Part shown: positions 3,213 through 10,556 of the stretch, piece by piece
How the letters are laid out: every line of letters begins with the position of its first letter
Numbering within the stretch: position 1 is the first letter of the stretch
NCBI GenBank assembly: GCA_947175465.1
Contig: CAMWMY010000031.1
Coordinates: forward strand, 1-10,556
Reading direction: 5' to 3'
DNA: 10,556 nt
Origin: an uncultured Erysipelotrichaceae bacterium
Lineage (GTDB): Bacteria; Bacillota_I; Bacilli_A; Erysipelotrichales; Erysipelotrichaceae
The notes under the pieces: generated by a model
Told to the model about the DNA's origin: nothing
Databases searched by the model: none
Seen by the model: the letters and a program-made list of their open reading frames with translations, nothing else
Made by a program: the position numbers and the translations under genes

Positions 3213-4511
3213 CTATGGTGCTGCTATTGTATCAACTGTTTGAAATGTATAACCTAAAGCTTTCATATTCTTTATAAATGTATCCATAGCTAAATAATTT
3301 CCTTTATTGCTTGGATGTAATAAATAAATTGCTCCATTATGATAATGATCCATCATCGTTTTTAAAACCTCTTCTTTTGATAAATCAGGGCCATAATCAT
3401 AGAAAGCATGAGACCATGCATACGTACGATATCCTAAATCTTGCATAATTTTCAAAGAACGTAAAGAACTCCCTCCTTTAGGAAAACGAAAAATCTTTTT
3501 CATCTCCTGACCTGTAACTTGCATAAATGCTTTTTCTGTTTCTGTAATTTCTAATACAAATTTATCAATATCATTAGCATTCGCTAAAGTAGGCATATCA
3601 TAATGATGCCACGTATGATTCGCTACTAAATGTCCATTTTCTACTAATTCATTCATAAAATCTGGTTCATTTAAAATATAATTTCGCGTCAAAAAAAAGG
3701 TTGCATCTACATCATTATCATCAAGTACTTTAGTAATTTCTTTAATATAGGTAATATCATTTCCACCCTCATCAAAAGTAAGATAAATCACTTTTTCATC
3801 AGGACCTTGATGATAAGCATCATATGTGTGAAGTACTTCTTCATCTATCGCCCCTTTTACACGTTCATGATTTTTACTTTTCTCAAACCACCATTCCTCT
3901 GCCTTATTATCATAAGAATCATGGTTATAATATAATTTTACGTTAGTAGGATCTTGACAAACATTCACATTTCTTATAATTTCAGAAGTATTTCCTGCAC
4001 GATCACTCAAAGAATACGTTATTTGATATTCTCCTTGCTTACTCATATCCACATTGCTTTTTATATGAATTTGATCACTGATATCTCCATCATAATTATC
4101 CATTCCTTTAACCCCAGGCTCTTCGTATACTGTATTTTCAAAAACACGTATCGAAGTAGGTCCTTGTAACTGAAGGTTAGGTGGTGTAGTATCTACTACT
4201 TCTACCTTTCTTGTTACTTGCTTATGATAATCTTTTAAAGAATAAACTACTTCATACGTTCCTGTCTTTGTAATATCTACATTGTTATTAACTTCAATGT
4301 ATTGGCTATAATCCAAAAAGCGATACCTGGCAATTGCTCCTTGATCATCATAAGGTTGATTTACCTCTACCTTGATATGATCTTCTCCTTTTACTTTTAA
4401 TAATGGAACAAATAAGCCACTGAAAAATAAAATTTTTATAACACCAATAGCAATACATATGCACAACATAGAAATAAGAGCAACAATAACTCTTTTACAC
4501 TTTTTACTCAC
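3213..4511 (-). CDS. Membrane-anchored PdaA-like polysaccharide deacetylase with two Ig-like (DUF5011-type) repeats
   Basis: A carbohydrate esterase family 4 enzyme of 432 residues that probably removes N-acetyl groups from peptidoglycan outside the membrane. Residues about 8-33 form one membrane-spanning signal anchor after a basic start (SKKCKR). Two Ig-like repeats follow at about 42-107 and 108-186; the second opens with DTTPPNLQLQG and has the GEYQITYSLSDRAGNT signature. The NodB fold covers about 241-429. Its motifs are TFDEG (Asp247, with Glu248 in place of the usual second Asp), HTWHH (His299, His303), RFPKG (Arg342), SHAFYDYG (Asp372) and LLHPSNKG (His399). The pattern WWFEKSKNHE before the domain and WSHAFYDY within it resemble B. 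subtilis PdaA more than PgdA. I chose the GTG at 4509-4511 because GAGGTG lies 6 bases upstream. An ATG at 4542-4544 and a GTG at 4572-4574 are in frame but lack a ribosome binding site. Confidence 0.87.
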   Translation of the reverse strand: MSKKCKRVIVALISMLCICIAIGVIKILFFSGLFVPLLKVKGEDHIKVEVNQPYDDQGAIARYRFLDYSQYIEVNNNVDITKTGTYEVVYSLKDYHKQVTRKVEVVDTTPPNLQLQGPTSIRVFENTVYEEPGVKGMDNYDGDISDQIHIKSNVDMSKQGEYQITYSLSDRAGNTSEIIRNVNVCQDPTNVKLYYNHDSYDNKAEEWWFEKSKNHERVKGAIDEEVLHTYDAYHQGPDEKVIYLTFDEGGNDITYIKEITKVLDDNDVDATFFLTRNYILNEPDFMNELVENGHLVANHTWHHYDMPTLANANDIDKFVLEITETEKAFMQVTGQEMKKIFRFPKGGSSLRSLKIMQDLGYRTYAWSHAFYDYGPDLSKEEVLKTMMDHYHNGAIYLLHPSNKGNYLAMDTFIKNMKALGYTFQTVDTIAAP

Positions 4512-4516
4512 TTCTT

Positions 4517-4524
4517 TCACCTCT
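4517..4524 (-). promoter_or_regulatory. Ribosome binding site supporting a GTG start for the deacetylase
   Basis: AGAGGTGA on the minus strand matches the anti-Shine-Dalgarno sequence well and leaves 6 bases between GAGGTG and the GTG at 4509-4511. The resulting N-terminus (few residues, Lys/Arg cluster, then a hydrophobic helix) is that of a signal anchor. The longer frame would add a second short hydrophobic stretch without a binding site. Confidence 0.7.
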
Positions 4525-4563
4525 ATACAAAATACGCTTTTCATAATAAAAAAATGTATACAT

Positions 4564-4600
4564 AAAAAAATCACTTCCCTAGAAGTATATAAGGGAAATG
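4564..4600 (-). terminator. Intrinsic terminator at the end of the murF-ddl-alr-oxidoreductase unit
   Basis: On the minus strand CATTTCCCT (4592-4600) pairs with AGGGAAGTG (4572-4580) as a 9-bp stem with one U-G wobble around an 11-base loop. One A and then seven T residues (4564-4570) follow. The structure begins about 40 bases after the oxidoreductase stop codon. It is the best terminator in the window, yet it ends only about 52 bases before the deacetylase GTG start. Confidence 0.8.
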
Positions 4601-6288: not shown

Positions 6289-7440
6289 TTATTTATAAAT
6301 TCTTGGCACTCTAGCGCTAATACGACATACCATTTCATTATTAATCGTATCAGCTAATTTTGATAATTGATCAATTCCAAGAAAGCGGCTACCATCTTGT
6401 CCAAAAAGAGTGACAATATCTCCTTCTTGTACATCTGGAATATGTGTAACATCAATCATCAGTTGATCCATACATATATTCCCTACAATCAAAGCCTCTT
6501 CTCCTTTAATTAGTACTTTTGCCCCAAGATTTGAAATATTGCGAGGAATTCCATCGGCATATCCTATACTAATAGTAGCAATTTTTCTTTTTTGGGCGCA
6601 AATATAATGCCTACCATAACTAACACTACTTCCTGGATCAAGCCATTTAACCAATGAAACATTAGCCTTCAATGACATAATCGGTAAAAGATTAGGATGT
6701 GTTATCGTTTTTATATCACAATGGCTATAAATACCTAAAAACAATAAACCAGGGCGAACATAATCATACTCTAAATCTGGAAAATTTAAAATACCATAGC
6801 TATTTTGTAAATGAACTACTCCAGGATGAATACCTTCTTCTTTAATTTCATGAAGAACTTGATTAAAAAGTTTAATCTGTTGATGCGTAAAAGAAAGATC
6901 TTCTTGTTTTTCAAGACTATCCGATACAGCAAAATGAGAAAAAATCCCTTCTACTTTCACATGATGAAAACTATATAATTTTTTAATATCCTGAATCATC
7001 CATTTATTTTCAACACATGAAATTCCTAATCTTGACATCCCCGTATCTACTTTAATATGTGCCTTTATTTGCACATTGTTTGCTTTTCCATATTGTTCTA
7101 ATTTATTAGCATATTCTACACTCATTAAAGTTTGTATCAAATCAAAACGATGTAAATAGTGAAAATGCTCAATAGGAGTATAGCCTAAAATTAATATTTT
7201 TTCACGGATTCCACCTGTACGTAGTTGAAGTGCTTCATCCACACTGGATACTCCAAAAAAATCAACACCACATTTCACTAGTTCTTGAGCAATTGTGACA
7301 TCACCATGCCCATAGGCATTGGCTTTTACAATTCCCATAACCTTGGTTTTTTTAGGAATTAATTTACGAATCTCTTCCATATTATGATGTACTTTCTTTA
7401 AGTCTATTTCTACCCATGCTCGACTACTACAGTTCATCAT
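6289..7440 (-). CDS. alr: Alanine racemase with an Asn at the VanT-like serine-racemase position
   Basis: A PLP-dependent fold type III racemase of 383 residues that interconverts L- and D-alanine in the cytosol, supplying D-Ala for peptidoglycan. The PLP lysine is Lys39 in IVKANAYGHG. VDTGMSRLG contains Arg137, SSVSYG contains the opposite catalytic base Tyr275, and NICMDQ holds Met324-Asp325. IGYADGIPR and the C-terminal RVPRIYK are also typical. The odd point is TINNEM (365-370). Ordinary alanine racemases read TINYE, with the Tyr (354 in Geobacillus Alr) lining the substrate pocket, while VanT serine racemases have Asn. Asn368 therefore suggests that serine may be accepted. No VanT-like membrane domain is present. 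The ATG at 7438-7440 is chosen because AAGGG lies 10 bases upstream; a GTG at 7447-7449 is too close to that site. The gene begins 18 bases after ddl. Confidence 0.95.
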   Translation of the reverse strand: MMNCSSRAWVEIDLKKVHHNMEEIRKLIPKKTKVMGIVKANAYGHGDVTIAQELVKCGVDFFGVSSVDEALQLRTGGIREKILILGYTPIEHFHYLHRFDLIQTLMSVEYANKLEQYGKANNVQIKAHIKVDTGMSRLGISCVENKWMIQDIKKLYSFHHVKVEGIFSHFAVSDSLEKQEDLSFTHQQIKLFNQVLHEIKEEGIHPGVVHLQNSYGILNFPDLEYDYVRPGLLFLGIYSHCDIKTITHPNLLPIMSLKANVSLVKWLDPGSSVSYGRHYICAQKRKIATISIGYADGIPRNISNLGAKVLIKGEEALIVGNICMDQLMIDVTHIPDVQEGDIVTLFGQDGSRFLGIDQLSKLADTINNEMVCRISARVPRIYK

Positions 7441-7450
7441 GAAAAACACA

Positions 7451-7458: not shown

Positions 7459-8526
7459 TTAATTTTCTAATGCGAATGCGATCAATGCGTCAATTAAATC
7501 TGCAAAAGATACTCCTACTTCTTTCATCATACTTGGATAACGTGAAGTTGCAGTAAAACCTGGAATTGTATTGACTTCATTAAGAATAATTTCTTCCTTA
7601 GGAGTTACAAACATATCGATTCTTGCCAATCCTTTACAATTTAATGCACGATATACTTTTTGTGCAATTTCTTGTGCTTCTTTGATAAGCTCTTTTGAAA
7701 TACGTGCTGGACAATGAATACAAGAATTTAACATTTCATATTTTCCTTGGTAATCAAAAAAGGCTGCCGAAGTTTCAACTTCATCTACACTTCCAACAGT
7801 TAAAGTTTGATTTCCCATGATTGAACATCCAATTTCAAAACCTTCAATCGTTTTTTCTAAAATAACTTTTCCTTTTCCATCGTGTAAAAAAGCATCTTCT
7901 AATCCTTGTATGAATTCTTCTAATGTTTGAATTTTACTAATCCCAAAACTACTTCCAGCATTCGCTGGTTTTATAAAAATAGGAAGTCCTAATTCTTGTT
8001 TTGCATGTTCAAATAAAGCATTATAATCCATCTTTGGTTGTTGGTAAACACAAAGATAAGGAGAACATACAATGTTCGCATTTTCACATACAATATGCGT
8101 CATTTCTTTATCCATACAAATACTAGAACTCATATGTCCACATCCAACATAAGGGATACCTATTAATTCAAATAGTCCTTGTATTGTCCCATCCTCTCCA
8201 TTTTTACCATGTAAAATTGGAAAAATACAATCTACTTCTATTAACTCATAGCTTCCATCTTTTTTTAACTTTAAAAATCCTTTATAAGCTTTTGAACTTG
8301 ATAAGGTAACTTCTTCACAGCTTTCATGTTGCCACCATGTATCATCTTCAATAGATGCTATATCTCCATTATAAGTATACCATTTTCCTTCTCTTGTTAT
8401 TCCTATACATACAATATCATATTTAGATGCATGAATACTATGCAAAAAAGACCCTGTACTATGTAAAGAAACAGGATATTCACTTGATTCTCCACCAAAA
8501 ATAACAGCTAATTTTATTTTTTTCAT
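7459..8526 (-). CDS. ddl: D-Ala:D-X ligase of the VanG-like clade (D-Ala-D-Ala or D-Ala-D-Ser ligase)
   Basis: An ATP-grasp ligase of 355 residues that joins D-Ala to a second D-amino acid for the peptidoglycan pentapeptide. It has GGESSEYPVS (Glu16, binds the first D-Ala), PILHGKNGEDG (103-113), IFIKPANAGSSFG (193-205), the omega loop FFDYQGKYEM (256-265, Lys262-Tyr263), the Arg in LARIDMF (Arg302) and NEVNTIPGFT (316-325). The whole sequence, including IGITREGKWYTY and SRYPSMM near the end, resembles VanG as I recall it. The reported D-Ser determinants of VanG (Asp243, Phe252, Arg324) match Asp248, Phe257 and Arg329 here, with identical spacings of 9 and 72 residues; common Ddl proteins have a hydrophobic residue instead of that Arg. 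The start is 2 bases after the murF stop, and its GAGGTG site lies in the last two murF codons, implying translational coupling. D-Ser use is inferred. Confidence 0.95.
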   Translation of the reverse strand: MKKIKLAVIFGGESSEYPVSLHSTGSFLHSIHASKYDIVCIGITREGKWYTYNGDIASIEDDTWWQHESCEEVTLSSSKAYKGFLKLKKDGSYELIEVDCIFPILHGKNGEDGTIQGLFELIGIPYVGCGHMSSSICMDKEMTHIVCENANIVCSPYLCVYQQPKMDYNALFEHAKQELGLPIFIKPANAGSSFGISKIQTLEEFIQGLEDAFLHDGKGKVILEKTIEGFEIGCSIMGNQTLTVGSVDEVETSAAFFDYQGKYEMLNSCIHCPARISKELIKEAQEIAQKVYRALNCKGLARIDMFVTPKEEIILNEVNTIPGFTATSRYPSMMKEVGVSFADLIDALIAFALEN

Positions 8527-8528
8527 CT

Positions 8529-9908
8529 TTACACCTCTTTTAACCCTTCAATAATTTGTTCCATTTGTAAGCCACGACTTCCTTTTATAAGTATCATACA
8601 AGCTTTTAAACGATAAGGCTTTAAATACGATATCAACTCTTGCTTATCTACAAAATGGCGAATATATGCATTTTTGATCATCTGATTAGCACCTTGTGTT
8701 ATATAGCGTGCCATATCACCAAAAGTTAATACTTCATCTATTTTATACTGAGAAAGTTGTTTCCCTAAAGTATAATGGATCGTATCACTTTGTGGCCCTA
8801 AATCTAGCATATCTGCTAATACTACTATTTTATAAGGAGCTTGTAAACTCTCCATAGTATCTAAGGCTGCGATAACACTTTGCGGATTAGCCTTATAAGT
8901 ATCATTTAAAATTTGACAATTTCCTATACATAATAATTCATTACGCATACCCGTCTTTTCAATATGTAATAATCCTTGCGCGATAGCTTCTTCTTTGACA
9001 CCTAACTCTTTCGCTGCAATGATTGCTGCTAAAGCATTAATTGCTTGATGTTTTCCTAACATGTCCATTTGAAAGCTAAGCTTACTTCCATTTACGCTAA
9101 AATTTAACCCTTGCGATGTCTGAGAAAGAGAATGAACAAACATATCATTACTTCTTTTTTCTCCAAACGTTTTAATACGAATACTTCCTTTAATTTGCTC
9201 ACGTATAACAGCATCTTGTAGCAATTTTTGATCACCATAATATATAAATAATCCATGAGGGTTCATTCCATGAATAATTTCTAATTTTGCCTTTGCAACA
9301 TTTTCTAAAGTTTGCAAGTTTTCTAAATGAGCCGTTCCAATATTCGTTACAATGGCAATATCTGGTTTTACTAAATGCGTTAATAAATCCATCTCTCCAA
9401 GATTTTCCATTCCCATCTCAATCACAGCTACTTGTGTTTGCTCACTAAGTGATAATAAAGTAAGAGGTACTCCAATTTCATTATTAAAATTTCCTAATGT
9501 TTTTTGTGTAATATAGGTTTGGGATAAAATTGAGGCTAATATATCTTTAGTGCTTGTTTTTCCATTGCTTCCTGTAATTCCTACAATTTTCAATGATAAT
9601 TGAGAGCGATATATAGCTGATAATGTTTGTAAACCTACTAAGGTATCTTTTACTAGAATAACTGTAATTTCTGTAGGAGGATTGGGTTCATCTTCATTCC
9701 ATAAAGTAGCTACTGCCCCATTTTCAATCGCTTGTGCAACATAATGGTGCCCATTATAACGATTTCCTTTAATAGGAATAAATAAATTACCCTGTACAAC
9801 TTTACGAGAATCTATACATACCCCTTTAATTTTTTGTTCAATATTATTATTTTCGATATATTTAGCATCTAACATCTGAATAATCGCGTCTATAGAACGT
9901 ATAATCAT
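8529..9908 (-). CDS. murF: UDP-N-acetylmuramoyl-tripeptide--D-alanyl-D-alanine ligase (MurF)
   Basis: A 459-residue cytosolic Mur ligase that adds the D-Ala-D-Ala (or D-Ala-D-X) dipeptide to UDP-MurNAc-tripeptide using ATP. The N-terminal domain has the MurF-type IDSRKVVQGNLFIPIKG (32-48). The ATP loop is GITGSNGKTSTK (110-121). VIEMGMENLGEM (162-173) and TNIGTAHLE (178-186, His184 region) carry the metal and catalytic residues of Mur ligases. NDTYKANPQS (335-344) and IKGSRG (441-446) close the active site and identify MurF rather than MurC, MurD or MurE. The length is typical. The ATG at 9906-9908 has AAAGGGA 7 bases upstream. It is the first gene of the unit with ddl and alr and is preceded by an extended -10 promoter. 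Since it would act on the product of the VanG-like ligase, it should tolerate D-Ser if that is made, as known MurF enzymes generally accept such dipeptides. Confidence 0.96.
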   Translation of the reverse strand: MIIRSIDAIIQMLDAKYIENNNIEQKIKGVCIDSRKVVQGNLFIPIKGNRYNGHHYVAQAIENGAVATLWNEDEPNPPTEITVILVKDTLVGLQTLSAIYRSQLSLKIVGITGSNGKTSTKDILASILSQTYITQKTLGNFNNEIGVPLTLLSLSEQTQVAVIEMGMENLGEMDLLTHLVKPDIAIVTNIGTAHLENLQTLENVAKAKLEIIHGMNPHGLFIYYGDQKLLQDAVIREQIKGSIRIKTFGEKRSNDMFVHSLSQTSQGLNFSVNGSKLSFQMDMLGKHQAINALAAIIAAKELGVKEEAIAQGLLHIEKTGMRNELLCIGNCQILNDTYKANPQSVIAALDTMESLQAPYKIVVLADMLDLGPQSDTIHYTLGKQLSQYKIDEVLTFGDMARYITQGANQMIKNAYIRHFVDKQELISYLKPYRLKACMILIKGSRGLQMEQIIEGLKEV

Positions 9909-10023: not shown

Positions 10024-10556
10024 TTATTTACTTATTAATTTATTAATATTTTTTAACTGTATAGAAATCGTTCCATCACTTGCTGTTGAAAACTCAATAT
10101 ATTCTTTACTATCCATAAAGTGAATAGGAACATTGATTTCAATTCCATTATCTGCTTTTATTTTCTGCATTTTTTCTGCTTTAGTAGTTTTTCCATGCTC
10201 CATAGAAATCGTATCAATCCCACTTTTTAAAAGCTCTTCCTTAAACTCTGTTTTGATCATTGGCTGATTTTCAAATAAAATCGATGCTACGGTATCTGTT
10301 TCAAGATCAGTATTTGATTCAACACTTTCTACAATTAATTGTTTCATCTTCGGTAATATTTTCATATCATCGAGCTCATATTTTTCTGCTATAGCTTTAC
10401 ATGCTTGTTGAACAGCTTTGGTACCCTCTTTAAAAGAAGGCTTTGTCTCACATTCTAAAATATAGTTTGTATATAAAAGACAAGTTTCTCCTTCTATTTC
10501 TACTGATGATTCAATAACTCCTATTTGTAAATCTGATAACTCTATCGTTATAGCAT
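10024..10556 (-). CDS. Probable nucleoid-associated protein (NdpA-like), C-terminal part
   Basis: The frame is open from the window edge (first full codon at 10552-10554) to a TAA at 10024-10026, so 176 C-terminal residues are seen and the start lies outside. An internal Met at 10363-10365 is not the start, because the upstream 63 codons are open and protein-like (they include LLYTNYILECETKPSFKEG). The end, with KADNGIEINVPIHF followed by EYIEFSTASDGTISIQLKNINKLISK, resembles the C-terminal strand region of Firmicutes proteins of the 37-kDa nucleoid-associated family (COG3081). Such proteins bind DNA or the nucleoid, but their role in Gram-positive bacteria is poorly known. It ends 115 bases before murF, which has its own promoter, so a shared transcript is not required. 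The assignment rests on recalled similarity of the C-terminus only. Confidence 0.65.
   Translation of the reverse strand, partial: AITIELSDLQIGVIESSVEIEGETCLLYTNYILECETKPSFKEGTKAVQQACKAIAEKYELDDMKILPKMKQLIVESVESNTDLETDTVASILFENQPMIKTEFKEELLKSGIDTISMEHGKTTKAEKMQKIKADNGIEINVPIHFMDSKEYIEFSTASDGTISIQLKNINKLISK

Follow-up and report, generated by a model that had tools for sequence, protein, structure and literature searches.

We propose that the window, by which we mean the whole 10,556-nucleotide stretch of DNA analysed here, carries a chromosomal three-gene D-Ala-D-Ser module such as is held for [Clostridium] innocuum, and from the sequence we put the probability of this reading at about 0.72. 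Its observed basis is the gene order, the residues of the ligase, the placement of the proteins in their families, a second ligase elsewhere in the genome and the single racemase found; the substrates, expression and vancomycin phenotype of the module are what we infer from these. The racemase would make D-Ser, and D-Ala too as the only racemase found, the ligase would produce D-Ala-D-Ser and perhaps some D-Ala-D-Ala as well, and the murF product (MurF1) would add the dipeptide to the wall precursor, presumably with a preference for the D-Ser dipeptide. A canonical MurF2-Ddl2 pair is encoded elsewhere in the genome and would lead to mixed precursors, and these could confer an intrinsic, low-level tolerance of vancomycin like that of C. 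innocuum. D-Ser ends of wall precursors weaken vancomycin binding, and David et al. in 2004 reportedly described a chromosomal D-Ser pathway in C. innocuum. In the sections available to us, later papers on this organism presume that resistance comes from two chromosomal genes giving a precursor that ends in serine (PMC8888209), report precursors with a C-terminal serine (PMC7018531), and name vanB-like elements (PMC4980698) and vanRS (PMC9942572).

The three genes are closely spaced on the minus strand. murF (8529..9908, 459 aa) is of the MurF1 type and matches TIGR01143 with 414.2 bits (cut-off 288.6). The gene for a Van-type D-Ala:D-X ligase (7459..8526 including the stop codon, 355 aa) has an ATG start 2 bases beyond the murF end and a candidate ribosome-binding site, GAGGTG (8532..8537, minus strand), predicted within the end of murF. 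Nine bases separate the ligase end from the listed start of a predicted soluble VanT-type alanine/serine racemase (6289..7449, up to 386 aa), although the position of the ribosome site favours an ATG at 7440 or 7437 over the GTG at 7449. All eight main ORFs of the window are on the minus strand and are overlapped by three short ORFs of 61-87 aa on the plus strand. The spacings agree with the murF operon setting given in the original prediction, which was also right that the gene is not in a resistance island: there is no Van island in the window, and the NCBIfam matches of the eight window proteins include neither VanXY nor VanRS. The order murF, ligase, racemase is kept across many genera. 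Upstream of murF, positions 10024-10365 encode a 113-aa protein with no NCBIfam or Pfam match, and similar stretches are seen there in several relatives; positions 3213-4574 encode a polysaccharide deacetylase related to PdaA, below that model's cut-off, and several relatives have it downstream of their operons too.

The original prediction was built on Asp248, Phe257 and Arg329 of the ligase, spaced 9 and 72 residues apart. These residues are present as claimed and align with Asp243, Phe252 and Arg324 of VanG (4fu0), which we take to be its determinants of D-Ser selectivity. The same triad, D/F/R, occurs in all of the 120 nearest proteins (the best 120 of 7986 matches), indicating that it is more than chance, and in 91 of 111 further proteins among the matches listed around an Erysipelothrix ligase. 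When aligned together with the window ligase, VanA, VanB, VanO, VanC1 and VanG all read D/F/R; E. coli DdlA and an Aerococcus Ddl read G/Y/M at these columns, as do five of six Clostridia relatives (the sixth is D/F/R), and the canonical second ligase of the window genome reads E/L/gap. The use of the triad as a mark of D-Ser was thus correct as to the residues but not as to their meaning; because the D-Lac ligases VanA, VanB and VanO also carry D/F/R, the triad does not single out D-Ser, and as judged from these alignments it is a mark of the whole Van superclade. A D/F/R triad should accordingly be read with caution, since on its own it establishes neither a VanG identity nor the acquisition of a resistance gene.

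Among the references compared here, the omega loop appears to separate D-Ser from D-Lac ligases. The window loop, FFDYQGKY, is like those of VanG (FFDYTEKY) and VanC1 (FFDFEEKY) and unlike that of VanA (IFRIHQE), and would be of the D-Ser kind, in keeping with the earlier recognition of this block as Van-type. The Tyr of its KY pair is kept, as it is in VanG and VanC1, and according to the available part of one study this Tyr is conserved in D-Ala-only Ddls (PMC7691350). VanG is the top NCBIfam match of the window ligase, at 468.4 bits against a cut-off of 495, and the C. innocuum ligase falls below the same cut-off with 454.8 bits. The window ligase also scores 372.7 with NCBIfam PRK01966.1-4, used here as a test for housekeeping D-Ala:D-Ala ligases (cut-off 262), which VanC1 passes too (341.3). 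An AlphaFold model (pLDDT 92.6) has VanA and VanG tied as its best fold matches, with DdlA close behind.

We constructed a ligase tree from 83 of 97 rows, dropping 14 near-duplicate or broken rows and removing the three triad columns. The Van superclade occupies one side of a branch (68 of 83 rows, support 100/99) and groups the window ligase with VanA, VanB, VanC, VanG and VanO apart from Ddl, which bears out the Van-clade placement originally proposed; the window ligase was not placed among verified D-Ala:D-Ala ligases that carry the triad. It lies in a clade with C. innocuum and other Erysipelotrichaceae (32 rows, 99/95), within a wider clade of 34 rows (97/97). VanG, VanC1, VanA and the vanG-like loci fall together in a separate set (18 rows, support 88/83, not starred), and in this tree the window ligase is not in the VanG subclade, both the 32-row and the 34-row clades excluding VanG. 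The ligases of Erysipelothrix, of a group with the triad F/Y-Y-L and of MurF1 fusions lie elsewhere in the superclade, except for the fusion in genome G053, which is within the window's clade. Five genomes have such fusions, with MurF1 and the Van-type ligase in one open frame of 808-814 codons, and these probably arose more than once because the tree separates G053 widely from G008, G055 and G056. Two metagenome assemblies titled Erysipelothrix rhusiopathiae contain ligases 52% identical to that of the window, and their titles are probably wrong; four named Erysipelothrix ligases are 28-38% identical to it.

The racemase, the most telling neighbour and one that the original prediction left out, passes both the NCBIfam vanT-G-Cterm model (465.9 bits, cut-off 460) and the plain alr model (358.3 bits, cut-off 168). 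Among solved structures it is nearest to the serine racemase VanTG (4ecl, 308 bits; the best Alr gives 250). It has two Ala_racemase domains only, and no membrane domain was found in its 386 residues. In a racemase tree made by a quick method with SH-aLRT support only (77 of 91 rows, 14 near-duplicate or broken rows dropped), it falls with VanTC and VanTG in a 56-row set (SH-aLRT 99), and 19 family Alrs and the C. difficile Alr stand apart. In this tree the Alrs are joined, on a long branch, by a racemase from a Paenibacillus plasmid (positions 3021-4175 of its locus) that is predicted to be vanT. Where the window racemase reads QNSYGILN, VanTC reads QSSYGILN and VanTG QSSYGLLN; 29 of the 67 racemases at Van-type loci match QNSYGILN exactly and 47 contain SYG, which none of the 19 Alrs fetched does. 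Sorted by the triad of the linked ligase, SYG is present in 46 of 57 racemases for D/F/R, one of two for D/Y/R and none of eight for F/Y-Y-L (one of them cut off). In Erysipelothrix, which has a D/F/R ligase, the racemase reads QNSPSILN, without SYG. Ligase and racemase identities diverge together over 66 loci (r = 0.935, from pairs that are not independent). The agreement of triad and omega loop with VanG and VanC1, the placement in the ligase tree, the VanT-type character of the linked racemase and its joint divergence with the ligase count for the D-Ser reading; the missed VanG cut-off, the passing of the alr cut-off by the racemase, the retained KY Tyr, the fit of the triad to D-Lac ligases and the vanB-like elements and vanRS named for C. 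innocuum count against it. On the sequence evidence as a whole, the window gene probably encodes a ligase capable of joining D-Ala to D-Ser, of the same kind as that of C. innocuum.

The window genome is a 1.4-Mb draft, 83% complete. The original prediction had asked whether a second, ordinary Ddl exists in it, and we found one, Ddl2, on contig C12, where it adjoins a MurF-like gene whose product has a hydrophobic start (judged by eye) and Mur ligase domains. Ddl2 passes two NCBIfam D-Ala:D-Ala subfamily cut-offs. The window ligase is therefore not alone in this genome, and the suggestion that it may be the housekeeping enzyme, read as the only one, is not supported here; it may nevertheless carry part of that function. 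The draft genome showed no further racemase, so that of the window probably provides both D-Ala and D-Ser. The draft gave no VanX (PF01427) protein, and its one VanY-domain (PF02557) protein is on another contig beside a gene resembling a glutamate racemase; nothing was thus seen that would clear D-Ala-D-Ala.

We then compared 116 genomes, 115 of them drawn from one family at a completeness of at least 90% and the other being the window genome, and scored Ddl2 as present from rows of 200 bits or more and MurF2 from rows of 187-260 bits, leaving out partial matches in G013 and G113. A Van-type ligase is present in 67 genomes and Ddl2 in 72; 29 have both, 38 the Van-type ligase only, 43 Ddl2 only, and six neither (G013, G014, G048, G072, G088 and G113). 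G014 and G048, although listed as 98-99% complete, yielded no ligase, racemase or MurF candidate, perhaps for technical reasons. All 29 genomes with both ligases have the D/F/R triad. The 38 with the Van-type ligase only divide into 28 with D/F/R, eight with F/Y-Y-L and two with D/Y/R, and neither the Ddl2 query nor a profile search gave a second ligase in them among the matches listed. The role of only housekeeping ligase, unsupported in the window genome, may hold in the 28 with a D/F/R ligase.

MurF1 is above cut-off in 57 genomes, every one of which has a Van-type ligase (57/57, including G025, where MurF1 is on another contig and the locus is vanG-like), and at 56 of 67 Van-type loci it is part of the stretch fetched. 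MurF2 accompanies Ddl2 in 71 of 72 genomes and occurs without it in one; the one Ddl2 genome lacking a counted MurF2, G074, has a MurF2 piece at a contig end. MurF1 and a Van-type ligase with no other ligase found characterise 37 of the 116 genomes, 28 of them with an intact D/F/R. For racemases the count was set to one in G029, G064, G066 and G094, where second matches score 18-28 bits, and in G061, where the gene is split over contigs. On this count a single racemase is present in 14 of the 20 genomes with MurF1, a Van-type ligase and Ddl2, that of the window included, and in 23 of the 28 sole-ligase D/F/R genomes, four Erysipelothrix and G101 having two. Genomes with both ligases surround the largest of the sole-ligase groups in the ligase tree (16 rows, 100/99); this nesting suggests that Ddl2 was lost, and at least five changes on that tree are needed to account for its presence. 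No paper that we found describes this family pattern of apparent sole use of the MurF1-Van-type module.

Two further groups of loci differ from that of the window. Eight sole-ligase genomes, under two genus codes, keep the operon with an F/Y-Y-L triad; this appears near the D-Ala pattern, and these loci would form a natural contrast set. Eight vanG-like loci, in genomes with Ddl2, have a racemase frame of 522-721 codons; in four of them ligase and racemase are separated by about 0.7 kb, a space that could accommodate vanXY, and in the other four there is no such space.

An alternative explanation is that the window gene encodes a D-Ala:D-Ala ligase of Van ancestry, which inherited the triad but makes mainly D-Ala-D-Ala as a spare or sole ligase. 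Genomes with a Van-type ligase alone still need a wall, eight of 38 have the near D-Ala F/Y-Y-L pattern in the same operon, and the racemase passes the alr cut-off as well; moreover, the VanC2 D-Ser ligase also made D-Ala-D-Ala at pH 8, a product not seen at pH 7.5 in an earlier report, according to the part of the paper available (PMC12004154). However, while these eight genomes point to a triad open to change, D/F/R is retained in 28, and together with the VanT-type racemase this makes the explanation unlikely in our view.

A D-Ala:D-Lac ligase would account for a triad common to VanA, VanB and VanO and for VanA being tied with VanG as best fold match, but it fits poorly with an omega loop that has K-Y as in VanG and VanC1 rather than the HQE of VanA, and with a linked gene that is a racemase, no vanH-like family being matched among the eight window proteins; we regard this as extremely improbable. 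It is also very unlikely, if slightly less so, that the window holds a transferred resistance cluster, whether silent or inducible. The vanG-like loci with long racemase frames in eight family genomes are consistent with such transfer, but the murF-ligase-racemase order is conserved in many genera, the stretches fetched at 26 of 67 Van-type loci include the same downstream FAD gene, and the window proteins lack the VanXY and VanRS of such clusters. A chromosomal D-Ala-D-Ser module thus remains our preferred interpretation of the window.

More tentatively, and at somewhat under even odds, we suggest that in the Erysipelotrichaceae the D-Ala-D-Ser module took over wall synthesis, such that the walls of Catenisphaera and Erysipelothrix would be obligately D-Ser-ended, with a separate MurF for each dipeptide. 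In the window's line the takeover would have been stepwise, the alanine racemase being replaced first and then the whole MurF2-Ddl2 pair; Erysipelothrix would have followed another order, because a second racemase is still present there. Catenisphaera adipataccumulans has this module alone, and Amedibacillus dolichus has both. A D/F/R ligase is the only one found in four of the five Erysipelothrix genomes drawn (G070, which is sp. HDW6C, G089, G102 and G108), and no ligase was found in the fifth, G113. The E. anatis and E. urinaevulpis ligases are D/F/R; that of E. larvae is V/F/F, unlike the three other named Erysipelothrix, which counts against a uniform genus trait. Erysipelothrix is called intrinsically vancomycin-resistant in the available parts of two papers (PMC4215627, PMC3388329). 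The accessible portion of a third gives an MIC of 32 mg/L for E. rhusiopathiae, cites an old D-Ala-D-Lac idea but argues for D-Ala-D-Ala, proposes a vex23-vncRS locus for the resistance, and lists no ddl in its wall-gene table (PMC9637936). The intrinsic resistance of E. rhusiopathiae is thus without an agreed mechanism. Among the matches listed, judged by titles and the starts of abstracts and with most subscription journals outside the search, no paper put forward a D-Ser wall, either for Erysipelothrix or for the family at large. If the takeover is true, it would explain the intrinsic vancomycin resistance of Erysipelothrix without any Van island.

Precursors ending in D-Ala-D-Ser are generally treated as an addition that confers resistance. 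If the pattern seen in the family holds, D-Ala-D-Ser would instead be a normal, and in places the only, wall route in gut bacteria, with the same route in a genus that includes a known animal pathogen. The pattern would also help to foretell the survival of particular gut bacteria under oral vancomycin, and would provide a chromosomal relative for comparison with the mobile van ligases.

Among known systems the closest is that of C. innocuum, whose ligase, only presumed here to be the gene of the 2004 study, is 67% identical to the window ligase, has the same triad and joins it in a 28-row clade (100/99). In contrast to VanG of Enterococcus faecalis (4fu0), the window ligase is below the VanG cut-off, outside the VanG clade, and murF-linked without VanXY or VanRS beside it. 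It is also distinct from the housekeeping ligases, being 35% identical to E. coli DdlA, which has G/Y/M at the triad, and 30-32% identical to Ddl2 of its own genome, which has E/L/gap. The window racemase resembles the VanT serine racemases VanTC and VanTG (4ecl) in its catalytic domain, SYG motif and tree placement, and differs from them in having no N-terminal membrane domain.
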